IMG/VR virus record: IMGVR_UViG_3300031718_000110 | Coordinates: 1 to 22,619 of that record | Reading direction: 5' to 3' (one strand) | From: a virus | DNA length: 22,619 nt | Shown here: one piece after another, positions 3,899 through 22,619 of the stretch | Numbering within the stretch: position 1 is the first letter of the stretch | How the letters are laid out: each line of letters begins with the position of its first letter | Notes under the pieces: generated by a model | The model's input: the letters and a program-made list of their open reading frames with translations, nothing else | Told to the model about the DNA's origin: nothing | The model's database searches: none | Made by a program: the position numbers and the translations under genes

Positions 3899-4123
3899 AT
3901 GAAAATACTTACTCGCATATTTATCTTTGAGTTTTTGGCGCTGTTTCTTGGTCTTCGGGCTGGCATAGCGCTGTGGCATTACTCCCAGCCGCCGAAAGAT
4001 TCCTGGTATATCACGCCATGGGCGTTCACGTGCCTATTCATTGGGATTTTAATCGGCGTTGGATTCGCGTTTTCGGTCTGGAGGCTGATGATGCGCAGCC
4101 GTAATATCCGAGTTAGGCCGTAG
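3899..4123 (+). CDS. 74-aa membrane protein with two transmembrane helices
   Basis: The ATG at 3899 is preceded by GAGG at 3888-3891. The product has a first hydrophobic helix at about residues 7-27 ([20 protein letters not shown]), a short loop with KDSWYITPW, and a second helix at about 42-62 ([20 protein letters not shown]), then a basic tail. This is the layout of a small inner-membrane protein. Unlike its left neighbours it is not coupled to them; it sits after a 175-base gap with a possible promoter of its own. Its end overlaps the end of the opposing tailspike gene by 11 bases. It could be a moron-type or superinfection-related protein, but nothing proves a role. Confidence 0.65.
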
Positions 4124-5996
4124 CCAGGGAACTTCCGATCTGCGTGACCGTACCGTCCCACGCGCCAGCATTGCAGGGCGCTCCGGTCGGCACGCCGCCG
4201 ATTCTGCCGGCATTGAAGGCTGGTGACCCGGTTTTCACCTGGTACTGCAGCGCGTTCGCGCCATTGTTGGTGAAGGGATTCACGGAATTGGCAATCGAGT
4301 TTGCATCCTTGCCGGTAGCGGTTTTCCAAGTAGCCAAGGTCTGCGCGGTAGCCGTTTGGCTGCCGTTCATGTCGTAGGTTGTGAAGCGATTGCGCATGCC
4401 ATAGATGTTGTAATCGCAGAGCGCAAACCCATCGGTGTTGCAGGAGTTATAGCCGTACTCGGGGCTTCCGGTAAAACCACTGTCATAGCAGAGATTGTTG
4501 TAGCAGGTGAATATCCCTGTATGGCCTGGGGCTTCAACCATCCGCATTCCGGTGCCGGGAGAAGCTGCGCCGCCAGCGAGGTCCCACGTATTGTTGTAGT
4601 AAGCGGCAGGAGTCGCATATTGATCCTGCGCCGTACCAAAGTATCCATCGAGCATCTGTCCGCCCTTGCAGATGTTGTGATGGAACGAGCTTCCCGCGCG
4701 ACCGCTTGCACCAGTATTGCCGAAGCCTTGCATCGCAGTGCTATTCGGAAGCGAAGAAGTGCCGGTAGTACTCATGTCAAAATAGCAATACCGGATCGTC
4801 GTGCCGGAGATCACTCCCGTATCGTAGATGCCGTAAATGCCGCAGGTGTTCAGCATCGTGCAGTACTCAATTGTGAGACCGCTACTCGCCCCTGTGCCGA
4901 TGCCGCCCCATGCGGTGATTCCGGCAAAGTGGGTCGCGTCTACCGACGCATTCACGTTGTTGCTGAACAGGCAATTGCTGATGAGGCAATTGGTATAGGA
5001 ATATAGCTCTACCGGCCCGGTATGCGCACCGACACCGCCATGCGCCGTGCCGCTACTGTTGATGAACGCGCAATTCTTGACAGTGGTGTTGGACATCTGA
5101 CCGCCGGTCCCATCGTAGCTTCCAACCTGGAGAGCCCACGCGCTGAATCCTGTGATCTGCACCCCGTCGAGTATCCAGTTCCCCCAGTTCGCTGGCGTTC
5201 CAGGGCCGCCCTCACCCGTAGCGGCTCCAATCACAGTGCTGTTGTTCGCATTGCCGCCGCCGTAAAAGCCGCTAGCCCCTTTTGCATCGAGTGTCGCGGC
5301 GCCGCCCTGATACTGTCCGCTCGCGTTACAAGATCCTATGTAAGTTGGTGTCGCGGCGTTCGGCCCACCGTTGATTTGCAGCGCTGGGGAATGAAAGGCG
5401 CCCATCAGCTTGCTGACATCGTAGGTTCCACCAATGAGTCCAACGCGCTTTCCAGCGTAGAGACTCTGATGGGTGTTTATCGCCGTAATCGCCCACGGAC
5501 TCGCCAGCGTGCCTGGATTGGAATCACTCCCAGATGTTGAGATGAAAAAATCGAAACTGCTAGGCGTTCCGGTTGGCCCAGTAGGCGCCGTGGGGCCCGT
5601 AGGCGCAGTTGGGCCAGTCGGAGACGTTGGACCAGTGGGTGCCGTAGGCCCGCCTGTGGGACCGGTCGGCGCGGTCGGTCCCGTAGGGCCACCAGAGGAT
5701 GGTCCGGTTGGCCCCGCGGGGCCTTGCGGTCCGGTAGGCCCAGTAATCGAAGCCCCCGGCGTACCGACACCCTTCGGCCCAGTTGGCCCCATTGATCCAG
5801 GATTTCCTGGCACGCCCTGCTGACCTTGATCCCCAGTTGGCCCGGTTGGCCCAGCCGCTCCGGTGGCGCCACTGCCAGCAGGACCAGTCGGGCCGCCGGG
5901 TCCGGTAGGCCCAGCAGGTGCATCCTGCGAGAGCGTGCCGCTGAAGGGGACGGAGATGCCGTTGATCGTGAGGGTTCCGGATACATTCGTTGTCAT
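4113..5996 (-). CDS. Collagen-like tailspike with beta-helix domain
   Basis: The start is ATG 5996: it overlaps the upstream TGA (ATGA), and AGAGGA at 6005-6010 fits as a binding site. The product is 627 residues. Residues 1-26 form a short N-terminal beta segment. Residues 27-144 form a collagen-like stalk of G-x-y triplets, mostly GPT. From about 148 there is a beta-helix-like domain ([31 protein letters not shown], then many NN/NC turns such as [13 protein letters not shown]), typical of pectate-lyase-fold tailspikes. It probably binds or degrades host surface polysaccharide, but no catalytic residue can be named. It is the last gene of the leftward cluster, after the lipase. Confidence 0.8.
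5565..5920 (-). repeat. Collagen-stalk coding repeat (GPT triplets)
   Basis: The region is built from degenerate 9-base units coding for Gly-Pro-Thr and variants. At the 3' part of the stalk (residues about 104-142) the pattern becomes GPT-APT or GPT-SPT alternation. The opposite strand also stays open as a GPVGP-like frame, which is a by-product of the repeat. Confidence 0.75.
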
Positions 5997-6829
5997 TGTC
6001 GTGGTCCTCTGATGCATGCCACGCATGGCAGATCAATGCTTGAAACCTTCGTCCAGTCCATGATCGCGTAATCTAGCATCGATGCGTAGCATATCGCGTG
6101 ATGGTGGCAGGCAAGATCGAACTTTATTTTCGCTTCAATCTCTTCGATCCCAAGCCATGTCGCTCTAGGCAACGTCTCATAGTCGGGCCCTAAAGGCACA
6201 TGCGGCACGACATCGAGGCAGTAATTGAAGACATCGTATGTATGCACGGCTGCGTCAAAAGCCTTAACGAATGTCTCATTTCCGGTTTGCGGAGAGGCGA
6301 AGAATACTCCGCTAACGCGCGCGCCTAATTCTGTGGCCAGATCGAATGTCAGATACGTCGATAATGCACTACCTAAACTGTGGCCTATAACTTTCACCGA
6401 ACCCGATCCTATCACCGCTGCAATTCCCTTGACTGCAGACACTGGAATGCCGCCAATAGGCGCGTATTGCATGCTCATATAGAGCCGATAGAATCCAACC
6501 TCTACCGTCCCAGCGACTGGGTGTGATACGGGTAGAAACTCCGCATCCTCGATCCACTCTACCAGTCCGTCCGTGCCGCGCACGGCGACTGCGTACGAGG
6601 TCGCATCGGCCACAGATTGCGCGAGGTACCCGTAGTAGACAGTCTGTCCGTAAGCGACCGATTGGCCGCGCCGAAATAAGCAATCATCGCCAGTCAGATA
6701 GCCTACGATCTTCCATTGCGATGAGAGGCGAATATCTGGCGCTGGTGCGATCGACTCAATATTGGAGGCGTGCATATCCGCGGCGTAGAGCACCAGCAGG
6801 ATATTGTCGGCTGCCTCCTGTGGAGTCAT
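5993..6829 (-). CDS. Class 3-type lipase / alpha-beta hydrolase
   Basis: The product is 278 residues. The nucleophile elbow is [11 protein letters not shown] with Ser151. A preceding AVRGTDG (about 83-88) fits the oxyanion-loop region of lipase class 3. Asp206 in [12 protein letters not shown] and one of His242-244 in CHHHAICYA are candidates for the rest of the triad. There is no signal peptide, so release by lysis or attachment to the virion is possible. It begins one base after the stop of the 99-aa gene and its stop overlaps the tailspike start. Likely substrates are esters or membrane lipids, which suggests a role in envelope attack at lysis or entry; that role is inference. Confidence 0.85.
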
Positions 6830-6830
6830 C

Positions 6831-7130
6831 TTATGCAGGCTTTATCGCTGCTGGAGCGGTCGCCGTGCCAGTCGTCATTCCCTGCAGCTTTGCGATCAGC
6901 GCGTTGAGCTTCGAATTGATATCGGTCTGCACCGTGCCAGCCTCTGCGGTCGCCAGTCCAGGCAGCAGCAGTTCTAGTTGGTTCACCAATATCCCGGCCG
7001 CGGGACCGGCGCGCAGCGGAATCTGCATTGGATCCCCAGTCAAGATCGTATTGATGCAGGTTTGCAGCAGTTGCACCGCTTGGATCACAGTAGGGGCGGC
7101 CGCGATGAGAACCGGGTTTGGCGTAGACAT
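6831..7130 (-). CDS. 99-aa protein, likely separate start inside the transglycosylase frame
   Basis: ATG 7130 lies six bases after AAGGAA, which itself follows the TAA of the holin-like gene. That suggests independent initiation even though the transglycosylase frame runs in phase into it. The product reads MSTPNPVLIAAAPTVIQAVQ, then a helical region with PAAGILVNQLELLLPGLATA and a LNALIAKLQGM helix, ending in an Ala/Thr/Pro tail. Similar small helical proteins occur near phage lysis genes, but I know no function. The hydrophobicity is too weak for a clear membrane protein. Confidence 0.6.
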   Translation of the reverse strand: MSTPNPVLIAAAPTVIQAVQLLQTCINTILTGDPMQIPLRAGPAAGILVNQLELLLPGLATAEAGTVQTDINSKLNALIAKLQGMTTGTATAPAAIKPA

Positions 7131-7769
7131 TTGCGTTTCCTTAGTTGGACTTATTGGGAATGAAATAGGTGCAGAGTGTGGTGATGAGACCGCCGATGGC
7201 AATACCGAGGGCTGGGCTTGGGGCTTTCGAAAGATACTGGTCACACGCGAGAATAACGACTTGCCCGAGGAACTGTCCGATGGTGGCACCGATGACGACT
7301 TTTTGACCGGGTACCCACTTTGCTGGGGGAGACTCTGGATCTTGCATAAAACTCCTGGCACTGGCACATCGGCCACTATTTGCGATACGTAGTTTCGCGT
7401 CTCAATCGGCAGTGTAGCGAAAGTCCCTTGACTTTTCTGCCATTTACTTAAGTTTCCTGGCCCAAAATCGTAGGCAGCGAGTCCGAGTTGCCAATCTCCG
7501 CCAAATCTTTTGCTGAGGGAGGCGAGATAGGCGGTAGCGGTTCCGATGTCCTTAACGGGATTAACGCCTGCCCCACGGAAAAATTGAGGGAGCAACTGGA
7601 AGAGTCCGACGGCGCCTGAAGTGGGATTTCGAGCGTCAGAGTTAAATCTTGACTCTTGATAGCACTGACGAGCGCTGAGTCCTTCAGGGATGCCATTATT
7701 GATCTCCGCGGCGCTGATGACAGGTACCCACTTCTCTGCATTCGGGCCTAAGCGCCAACTATCGCCCAT
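6831..7769 (-). CDS. Lytic transglycosylase (SLT type), frame continuing through the next two genes
   Basis: The frame is open from ATG 7802. I prefer ATG 7769 because AGGA lies six bases upstream. From that start the catalytic Glu39 lies in CYQESRFN, followed by SGAVGLFQLLP (about 52-61) and AAYDFGPGN, the three landmarks of the SLT/lysozyme-like fold that cuts the glycan strands of peptidoglycan. The domain ends near ETRNYVSQIVADV (about residue 134). After that there is no stop: the frame crosses the holin-like gene as Ser/Pro-rich filler and then runs in phase into the 99-aa gene, giving 312 residues. Whether the long product is made is unclear; the enzyme core alone is about 140 residues. 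It overlaps the end of the coiled-coil membrane protein gene by about 10 bases. Confidence 0.82.
   Translation of the reverse strand: MGDSWRLGPNAEKWVPVISAAEINNGIPEGLSARQCYQESRFNSDARNPTSGAVGLFQLLPQFFRGAGVNPVKDIGTATAYLASLSKRFGGDWQLGLAAYDFGPGNLSKWQKSQGTFATLPIETRNYVSQIVADVPVPGVLCKIQSLPQQSGYPVKKSSSVPPSDSSSGKSLFSRVTSIFRKPQAQPSVLPSAVSSPHSAPISFPISPTKETQMSTPNPVLIAAAPTVIQAVQLLQTCINTILTGDPMQIPLRAGPAAGILVNQLELLLPGLATAEAGTVQTDINSKLNALIAKLQGMTTGTATAPAAIKPA
7141..7347 (-). CDS. Holin-like membrane protein nested out of frame
   Basis: ATG 7347 has AGGAGT four bases upstream, one of the best binding sites in the region. The 68-residue product has two membrane helices: about 16-36 (VVIGATIGQFLGQVVILAC) and about 45-63 (PALGIAIGGLITTLCTYFIP), separated by a short loop, with a short C-terminal tail. 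Size, layout and position beside a transglycosylase are those of a holin, which would let the lysis enzyme reach the cell wall. It lies entirely inside the longer transglycosylase frame, in another phase. Holins are too diverse for a family name. Confidence 0.7.
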   Translation of the reverse strand: MQDPESPPAKWVPGQKVVIGATIGQFLGQVVILACDQYLSKAPSPALGIAIGGLITTLCTYFIPNKSN

Positions 7770-8136
7770 GCCCATTCCTAAATAGCGCATCGACCCTTTC
7801 ATGCACCGCTCTGATATCCGATCGGGTCGCCATGCCGTTATCCAAATTCTCCTTATGCATCCGTAAGCGCTCCTCCTTCATCTCTTGCATGAATGCCATT
7901 AGTTCAATGCGCGTGACTAACCCCGGTATTTTATCTTCCACGGCATTTACCATCTTAATCGTTGCGTAAGTTGAAGCTAGCTGCCCGATCAGAACTTCGT
8001 GCACATCGACTTTGATCACATATTTTCGCTGAATCCATCCATAAATTCCGATGAAGATCCCGGAGACGGCGAGCGCGAACCAACTTAAGACTTGAATTGC
8101 CCATGGGGGTAGAGGGGTCGTGTTCTCGATAGCCAT
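7759..8136 (-). CDS. Single-pass membrane protein with coiled coil
   Basis: ATG 8136 shares one base with the upstream stop (TAATG) and has AAAGGT nearby. The product is 125 residues. After a short lead (MAIENTTPLPP) there is one helix at about 12-35 (WAIQVLSWFALAVSGIFIGI), then a basic segment and a long charged helix (LMAFMQEMKEERLRMHKEN) ending in RAVHERVDALF. That is an N-in anchor with a periplasmic or cytoplasmic coiled coil, as in some phage lysis-accessory or inner-spanin-like proteins. No outer-spanin partner is visible next to it. It directly precedes the transglycosylase. Confidence 0.7.
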   Translation of the reverse strand: MAIENTTPLPPWAIQVLSWFALAVSGIFIGIYGWIQRKYVIKVDVHEVLIGQLASTYATIKMVNAVEDKIPGLVTRIELMAFMQEMKEERLRMHKENLDNGMATRSDIRAVHERVDALFRNGHGR

Positions 8137-8636
8137 TACGACCTTTGCAGTATCACGGCTACCGTGGCGCTGTTTAAGAAATGAAATCCAGGATTCCAAG
8201 ACCAATTGGCACTGCCGCCGAGTGAGCCTCCTGAAAATGTAGCCGAGGTGCTGAGCAGAAGCGTGCCATTTAGCATCAAGCTAGTTAGGTATCCAGACGT
8301 AATGGAACCAACATATCCAGTAATCGTTAAATTCAACGGAAACGGATTCGTCACGCTCGCATCGATCGCCGTCACGGTCGCCCCGTCTCCTAAGACATTA
8401 GGCGTGAGTGACCCAAAGCCACCTTGCGCGTAGCCATTCGTGCCACCTACCGGAGCGCCGGCAGTGACGAGAGTCAGAAAATCCGCGCCCGTGAAAACCA
8501 ATCTAGCCGTCGATCCTGAATCGATGACCCAAATTTTTTTTATCTTCCTCGCCGTCGAGCCAGAATCGATCACCCACACTTTTTTAACCTTGCGGGTGGT
8601 TGAGCCTGAATCGACGACGTAGGTGAATTGGCTCAT
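8136..8636 (-). CDS. Tail protein with VIDSGST tandem repeats
   Basis: The product is 166 residues. Residues 7-47 contain three copies of a 15-residue unit around VIDSGSTARKIKKIW, the last incomplete. The rest is Gly/Ser/Thr-rich beta-type sequence (GADFLTLVTAGAPVGGTNG; LNLTITGYVGSITSGY) ending in LNSATVAVILQRS, as in phage fibre or decoration domains. It follows the 221-aa tail protein with a 6-base gap and overlaps the membrane protein gene by one base. Virion or tail role inferred from position and composition; no named family. Confidence 0.65.
   Translation of the reverse strand: MSQFTYVVDSGSTTRKVKKVWVIDSGSTARKIKKIWVIDSGSTARLVFTGADFLTLVTAGAPVGGTNGYAQGGFGSLTPNVLGDGATVTAIDASVTNPFPLNLTITGYVGSITSGYLTSLMLNGTLLLSTSATFSGGSLGGSANWSWNPGFHFLNSATVAVILQRS
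8484..8618 (-). repeat. 45-bp tandem repeat (VIDSGST-RK-KK-W units)
   Basis: Three units with 45-base period run from 8618 down to about 8490, the third incomplete. Each encodes V-[VI]-D-S-G-S-T-[TA]-R, and the first two also [K]-[VI]-KK-[VI]-W. The second contains a run of eight A on the coding strand near 8534-8541. Confidence 0.75.
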
Positions 8637-15974: not shown

Positions 15975-16754
15975 TTAAGCCCCTTTGCTCATCGCAATTC
16001 TTTTTCTTCTATTCTCCCATCCACGCTTCGCGCTATCACTTAATATCGCGCGAGTTTCTTCGGTATGCTTCGTCCCAAGACGAATTTCGCGTATTTTATT
16101 TTTATGTTCTTCGCTCTTAGGTTTGCGCATTCGCTCTTTAACCCACTCAGGTTTAGGAATGCCTTTTTGACGAGCGCTGCTCGCTGCTTTTTCTTCTTCT
16201 GTGAACGGTCGTCCTGGAATTCCTTTGCGATTTTCGCTCATCTTTTTGCGAGTTTCTTCACTCACGACTCGACCGGTATTCCTAATACGCAATGCCTCTA
16301 CAAGGTGCGGAGCTCTCTTACATCCTTTGGCCCTCGTATTACCCATCGCAGCGCGCGACATATTTGCGCGAGCTTCGTCCGACATTTTGCGGCCTTTCAT
16401 TCGCAAGCTATTAGCCTGCTTCCATTCATCGGTGTGTTTCAGGCCGCTAGGTCCCTCCCCTCCATCAGTTAGGTTAACTAGATCAGCGCCAATCGATCTC
16501 CAATGCGCAATCAATTCTCTTTCTTTGGCAAGCGCATCGGTTTCTTCCATATCACTATGGACGATGCGTACTTCGACTCGCAATCCTAATTTTCGAAGTT
16601 TCGCAACAATGAATCTATGCCAACGATTGCGTCCACGGTGCCAATCGTAAGCGCGGCGCGCGTGACCTTTGCCGACGTAAAAAATTACGCGTTCGTCAGG
16701 TCGCCAGTGTTCATATACGTAGAATTTTTTTTCTTTAGTGCTCAACTTCATCAT
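15975..16754 (-). CDS. GIY-YIG homing endonuclease with NUMOD3-like repeats
   Basis: The product is 259 residues. The N-terminal GIY-YIG nuclease has FYVYEHWRPDERVIFYVGKG (residues 11-30), followed by HARRAYDWHR, the candidate catalytic Glu78 in ALAKERELIAHW and LVNLTDGGEGPSG (92-104). The C-terminal half repeats short NUMOD3-type DNA-binding motifs: LKHTDEWKQANS, GRKMSDEARANMSRA, GRVVSEETRKKMSENRKG and LGTKHTEETRAI. It is free-standing, not inside an intron or intein, and overlaps the end of the 81-aa gene by 20 bases. The start is the ATG pair at 16754/16751; GAGG is directly upstream. It presumably cuts related phage DNA lacking it and spreads by repair. Confidence 0.9.
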   Translation of the reverse strand: MMKLSTKEKKFYVYEHWRPDERVIFYVGKGHARRAYDWHRGRNRWHRFIVAKLRKLGLRVEVRIVHSDMEETDALAKERELIAHWRSIGADLVNLTDGGEGPSGLKHTDEWKQANSLRMKGRKMSDEARANMSRAAMGNTRAKGCKRAPHLVEALRIRNTGRVVSEETRKKMSENRKGIPGRPFTEEEKAASSARQKGIPKPEWVKERMRKPKSEEHKNKIREIRLGTKHTEETRAILSDSAKRGWENRRKRIAMSKGA

Positions 16755-22039: not shown

Positions 22040-22619
22040 TTAATTTAAATCGTAAGTCACGACCATGCCTGCGCCTGACATTCCTTTCGTCCCTGTCGCG
22101 GTCCAACTAGCAGCGGCGCCATTTTTGAAAAATGAAAAACTAGAACTGGCTGCGACTTGAGCGGTTACATAGAATCCGCCTAGAGAAGAATTATCTTCCC
22201 ACGCTATCCCTCCGGTAGGTAGTTCCCAGGTGCTTACTGGCTGTATGGGCACAGGTAGGCCAGTGAATCCAAAGCTGCTTGAATTGCTGGTGCCGCTAAA
22301 AGGAGGAATGGATAAAGTAACGCTCGTGCCAACTAGAGAATAATGACACGTGACCGTGGGTGAGGTGGTCAAGCCTGTTGCAGTGGCTGTGAAAGATCCG
22401 GTAGTAACTCCCGAGGCGCCTGTCGGACCAGTTGGGCCTGTCAGGCCGGTCGCGCCAGTGGACCCTGTAGACCCAGTTGCACCGGTAGATCCAGTCGGGC
22501 CGGTTGGGCCCTGAATACCGGTTCCACCACCTGCACCGGTAGGGCCAGTAATACTCGGTCCAGTCGGACCAGTCGGCCCGCCGGCGCCTGTTAATCCGAT
22601 CGAACCGGTAGGTCCTGTG
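22040..22619 (-). CDS. Collagen-like tail fibre protein, 5' partial
   Basis: The frame is open to the right edge, so the N-terminus lies outside. An apparent start at 22372 is a TTG inside a continuous frame, not a real start. About 192 residues are visible. The first 75 or so are G-x-T collagen triplets ([20 protein letters not shown], earlier [10 protein letters not shown]). A short linker ([15 protein letters not shown]) leads to a C-terminal head: [40 protein letters not shown], then [14 protein letters not shown]. Collagen stalk plus terminal head is typical of phage fibres. It begins the leftward gene group seen here. Confidence 0.75.
22373..22619 (-). repeat. Collagen-coding triplet repeat at the window edge
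   Basis: Degenerate 9-base G-x-T coding units run to the right edge. Unlike the tailspike stalk, Gly is kept at almost every third residue, and the middle positions are Pro, Ser, Ala or Leu. Confidence 0.7.

Follow-up and report, generated by a model that had tools for sequence, protein, structure and literature searches.

A holin-like gene nested out of frame in the open transglycosylase frame of a phage lysis cassette, and the probable origin of the overlap by run-on of the enzyme frame

Organization of the lysis cassette

The window, i.e. the whole stretch of DNA that was analysed, derives from an uncultured phage and comprises 22,619 nucleotides (positions 1 to 22,619 of the virus record IMGVR_UViG_3300031718_000110). 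Its minus strand carries what appears to be a lysis cassette. The genes encode, one after the other, a one-helix membrane protein, an SLT transglycosylase (the putative endolysin), a two-helix holin-like protein, a small protein called ORF99 here, and a lipase or another hydrolase. A search for promoter and terminator signals found none above chance.

The two-helix gene is an open reading frame of 68 codons (7347..7141, minus strand) that lies entirely within the 323-codon open frame of the SLT gene (7802..6831, minus strand), in another phase. The gene is recognised by its reading frame, its ribosome-binding site, its hydropathy profile and the selection on it relative to the close relative L001. 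The ribosome-binding site, AGGAG (7352..7356, minus strand), is positioned 4 nt before the ATG. It is identical in L001, and CCAGGAG is found at the corresponding place in a distant relative, L023. Hydropathy peaks begin at residues 17 (1.99) and 46 (1.69) of the protein, and AlphaFold2 places helices at residues 13-40 and 45-62, in a model of low confidence (mean pLDDT 65). The original prediction, which was made from the nucleotide sequence, had given this reading frame and its coordinates, the ribosome-binding site, the two helices and the complete nesting, all of which were reproduced here.

The nested protein is small, has two membrane helices and is encoded beside an endolysin gene, the SLT gene being directly upstream. 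In these respects it resembles the two-helix holins, but it could not be matched to any holin family described so far. There was no PHROG match up to an E-value of 5, the Pfam search returned one weak, spurious match only, and the fold search gave nothing significant. Family and sequence searches revealed no recognisable relatives beyond the window and L001. We infer from the size, the helices and the position that the protein is a holin.

The transglycosylase proper occupies positions 7348..7802 (minus strand). Residues 29-129 of its frame match PF01464 (E 8.6e-16, 58 bits compared to a cut-off of 21.3). The catalytic glutamate of the ES motif, Glu50-Ser51, is invariant in the window, L001 and L023. 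The end of the domain falls just before the start of the nested gene. The best PHROG match of the SLT protein is a lytic tail protein; its small size and the context of a lysis cassette fit a role in lysis. No export signal is evident. SLT matches from Caulobacter and Shewanella were considered as relatives of the cassette and set aside, as they sit in large virion-type 'lysis proteins' and not in cassettes.

Past the nested gene the open SLT frame runs on into ORF99 and ends with it, at 6831. ORF99 (6831..7130, minus strand) has its own start, an ATG at 7130, ten bases past the nested stop codon and in the same phase as SLT, which the original prediction had overlooked. Its ribosome-binding site, AAGGAA (7137..7142, minus strand), overlaps the stop codon of the nested gene. 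In L006, another distant relative, ORF99 has a counterpart that is a free-standing gene.

The upstream gene of the cassette (7759..8205, minus strand) encodes a protein that has a single membrane helix at its N-terminus and, behind it, a long, charged stretch of helical appearance. Its start is likely to be an internal ATG (MAIENT...). The helix is strong (hydropathy 2.01), the gene is conserved in the cassette, and its counterparts precede the enzyme gene in L006 and L023. The protein gave no family match and is a candidate holin or spanin. At the other end of the cassette lies a class 3 lipase gene (PF01764; 5993..6829, minus strand). The slot after ORF99 is taken by this lipase in the window and by another α/β-hydrolase-like protein in L001 (6933-7499) and L023, as if this position of the cassette were open to an exchange of esterases.

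Elsewhere in the window, two minus-strand reading frames, 4113-6026 and 22040-22618, contain collagen-like GPTGPTG repeats, and the first of them matches tail-fibre families. A reading frame at 15975-16754, between large structural genes, resembles by eye a GIY-YIG homing endonuclease (YVYEHW...FYVGKG). Positions 2-200 are an array of GAV(G/R/H)(G/D) codons, a low-complexity repeat that runs off the end of the contig.

Selection on the two overlapping frames

L001 (IMGVR_UViG_3300050821_004237) is the sole close relative that was found, and it has the same layout. Sixty-six of the 68 residues of the nested protein are the same in the two phages if the GTG start of L001 is counted as Met (97% over 67 residues). 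The start varies only between ATG in the window and GTG in L001, both of which are usable. There are 20 nucleotide differences in the nested gene, and 16 of them affect the third base of a codon (binomial P 2.5e-5). Counted as codons, with the start and stop codons included in the tally, 16 changes are synonymous and three are non-synonymous. In the SLT frame over the same stretch 17 codons have changed, every one of them non-synonymously.

Substitution rates were calculated between the window and L001 by the method of Nei and Gojobori. The nested gene has dN 0.020 and dS 0.383 (dN/dS 0.05), whereas the SLT frame over it has dN 0.125 and dS 0.010. In the non-overlapping SLT domain dN is 0.101 and dS 0.377 (dN/dS 0.27), and in ORF99 the values are 0.20 and 1.5, respectively. 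The non-synonymous excess in the overlapping part of the SLT frame does not represent positive selection, because the third codon positions of the nested gene are the second positions of the SLT frame. The dS over the nested gene equals that of the SLT domain; as it is not lowered, nothing indicates that the amino acids of a further protein are constrained here. The nested reading frame is thus a real gene under strong purifying selection, as judged from the sequence comparison, and the SLT frame over it is unconstrained in its amino acids.

These values agree with the original prediction that selection acts on the holin-like frame. The opposite arrangement, a conserved SLT frame over a holin-like frame broken by stop codons, was looked for in L001, where the reverse was found. 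The Ser/Pro-rich appearance of the SLT frame in this stretch has a simple cause: a shift by one base turns the NTC codons (Val, Leu, Ile) of the nested frame into TCN (Ser) and its NCC codons into CCN (Pro).

Relatives in which the two genes do not overlap fully

Two distant relatives, L023 (IMGVR_UViG_3300048823_000117) and L006 (IMGVR_UViG_3300050821_004113), have a comparable cassette in which the enzyme gene ends before the membrane gene. The order in L023 is the same as in the window: a one-helix gene, SLT, a 105-residue two-helix gene, a 95-residue reading frame and a hydrolase. The L023 SLT protein is 40.6% identical to residues 15-147 of that of the window (E 1e-27), and its hydrolase is 58% identical to the one of L001. 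L006 was reached via ORF99, to whose counterpart ORF99 is 44% identical. It contains a one-helix gene, a 114-residue endolysin-like gene with a stop codon, a 66-residue membrane gene and the relative of ORF99, with ATGA overlaps. The L006 enzyme is different from SLT, and the membrane protein of L006 shows one hydropathy peak.

The L023 SLT protein ends in ...YVAQILADVPGELV-stop, compared to ...YVSQIVADVPVPGVL-Cys in the window. In L023 the tail ...ILADVPGELV is followed by TGA, which shares bases with the ATG of the two-helix gene (an ATGA overlap). In the window ...IVADVPVPGVL is followed by TGC in the place of that TGA, and the phase in which the next gene starts is the same. The TGC (7344..7346, minus strand) encodes Cys153 of the SLT frame and is also present in L001. 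Across the membrane gene, several more stop codons interrupt the enzyme frame of L023 as well as that of L006, and in neither phage is the reading frame in the slot of ORF99 in phase with the enzyme.

The membrane genes of L023 and L006 have no detectable sequence match to the nested protein and correspond to it by position and topology only. Likewise, the 95-residue reading frame of L023 has no detectable sequence match to ORF99 and corresponds to it by position. Among viral contigs, queries and alignments of SLT, of the nested protein and of ORF99 found L001 and L006 only, and a search for W[VI]PGQKV-type DNA patterns yielded two unrelated contigs, L013 and L014. Among 84,980 genomes, ORF99 had no match and the SLT profile found distant SLT genes only. 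The nested, ORF99 and one-helix proteins gave nothing meaningful when compared with phages by tblastn. MW202675, the best annotated phage match of a head-and-packaging gene, has no recognisable copy of the cassette in its first 40 kb, as judged by annotation.

Origin of the overlap

The nesting is probably the result of a run-on of the enzyme frame, which lacks its stop codon, and not of a holin having evolved inside an enzyme. The original prediction had placed the holin-like gene inside the transglycosylase frame. The open SLT frame does contain it, but the enzyme itself does not span it: the domain ends before the nested gene, which is also where the L023 and L006 enzymes stop. The ancestral type of layout may be that of the relatives, in which the stop codon of the endolysin gene and the ATG of the two-helix gene overlap as ATGA; this stop codon would be the one missing here. 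The simplest account is that it was lost in the lineage of the window and L001, the direction of the change being deduced from the comparison of these cassettes. It is also possible that the two-helix gene was replaced, rather than that the stop codon was simply lost, because the L023 and L006 membrane genes match by position and topology and not by sequence. A sequencing error was considered as the cause of the missing stop codon and rejected: L001, an independent contig, also has TGC there, together with a GTG start.

Since the SLT frame has no stop codon of its own, any ribosome that translates it would, under the standard code, continue in frame across the holin-like gene and terminate at the stop codon of ORF99 (6831). 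The product would consist of SLT, a Ser/Pro-rich tail and the ORF99 sequence. Having ribosome-binding sites of their own, the two-helix protein and ORF99 would in addition be made separately, and we infer that all three proteins are produced. By analogy with holin-endolysin lysis (PMC6139136), the two-helix protein presumably makes the inner membrane permeable and so gives the endolysin access to the peptidoglycan. The relatives that bear on the run-on are one close (L001) and two distant ones, and the membrane helix of the 7759..8205 gene product would allow that protein to be the holin instead.

This last point leads to a reading in which the nested gene is real and selected but encodes an antiholin, a spanin-like accessory or some other small membrane protein, with the 7759..8205 gene as the holin. 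We regard it as rather unlikely. The missing holin family match, the single charged residue near the C-terminus of the nested protein and the strong, conserved helix of the upstream gene product speak for it. On the other hand, the size, the two helices and the slot right after an endolysin without an evident export signal fit a two-helix holin well, and a similar gene occupies the same slot in L023, L006 being less clear. Far less probable still, indeed hardly credible, is an origin of the holin-like gene de novo, by overprinting in a pre-existing long SLT gene. The restriction of the nested protein to the window and L001 is what overprinting would lead one to expect, but L023 and L006 have a membrane-helix gene in the same slot and enzymes that end before it. 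Furthermore, overprinting predicts that the old enzyme frame is constrained and the young overprint is not, the reverse of what was observed.

The long SLT frame could also be maintained as a fusion, in which the endolysin is joined by a flexible Ser/Pro-rich linker to ORF99 as a C-terminal domain, with ORF99 also made alone. The holin gene would then lie out of frame in the linker, and after the loss of the stop codon selection would act only against new stop codons and not on the linker sequence. Should such a product be functional, it would exemplify a protein linker that stems from another essential gene, read in a shifted frame. When synonymous codons for the nested protein were drawn from each phage's own usage, the SLT frame remained open in 0.7% of the trials for the window and 0.3% for L001 (P about 0.007 and 0.003, respectively). 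None of the 13 risk codons (Leu, Val or Ile before a purine) creates a stop codon in the SLT frame, whereas 18-48% of them do so in most other genes of the window and L001, and 20-22% in the SLT domain. Although the spacers measure 10 and 7 nt, SLT and ORF99 share a phase in both phages.

Against these figures, the SLT and nested genes form a sharply bounded block (7141-7802) of low divergence, with dS 0.38. The flanking genes have dS values of 1.07 and 1.54 and those farther away are saturated, which points to a probable recent exchange. Because the block is shared at such low divergence, the window and L001 represent one event and not two independent witnesses. Depending on the transition bias, the frame would have remained open over the divergence seen here with a probability of 0.14-0.65. 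With the codon bias of the SLT domain itself (4 stops at 18 risk sites), the probability of openness is only about 0.04, and one of roughly 30 other gene junctions runs on for 78 codons out of frame, about as far. The openness probability is also inflated by the choice of this case for its open frame. The linker has no amino-acid constraint, and a structure model of the 323-residue SLT-ORF99 frame was uninformative. Selection for openness of the SLT frame is thus possible, and a maintained fusion is unlikely. The run-on remains the preferred reading, and an automatic call of a 'nested gene' is best met here by reading the enzyme as ending with its domain and the overlap as run-on.

Comparison with other embedded lysis genes

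The locus shares two features with embedded, out-of-frame lysis genes, namely a nested frame inside an outer frame and a selected coding sequence in the nested one. In phage 187 Loessner et al., in 1999, reportedly found a holin-like gene, HolTW, fully embedded in the frame of a peptidoglycan hydrolase. The two loci are alike in that the holin-like gene is entirely inside the hydrolase frame and in another phase. The enzyme of phage 187 is of another type, a CHAP-type domain having been reported for Ply187. Furthermore, in the present cassette it is a run-on past the domain, and not the domain, by which the enzyme frame covers the nested gene, and relatives with the stop codon exist. Ply187 is now considered to be a virion-associated lysin and not the endolysin (PMC6023083). 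Full encompassment has been called very rare among dsDNA phages in a paper on phage Ms6 (PMC3111421). The original prediction had described the nesting as uncommon, which it is, but phage 187 provides a precedent.

In phage lambda, the spanin gene Rz1 is embedded in the spanin gene Rz, and mutation of a stop codon followed by extension past the downstream gene has been proposed as a route to embedding (PMC6139136). Both in lambda and here a lysis gene lies out of frame within another. However, Rz has a function in its overlapped part, and the product of Rz1 is an outer-membrane lipoprotein, whereas the gene nested here encodes a membrane protein with two helices and lies in an outer frame without amino-acid constraint. 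The Ms6 pair lysA/lysA241 and other two-polypeptide endolysins (PMC3111421, PMC9430671) have an internal in-frame start with a ribosome-binding site, like ORF99. They share a known C-terminal part of the endolysin, whereas ORF99 is represented by a free-standing gene in L006. The locus is a variant of the known embedded-lysis-gene arrangement, with relatives that show the layout without the overlap. It would provide a concrete example of the proposed route, in which an upstream gene overruns its neighbour once its stop codon has been lost.
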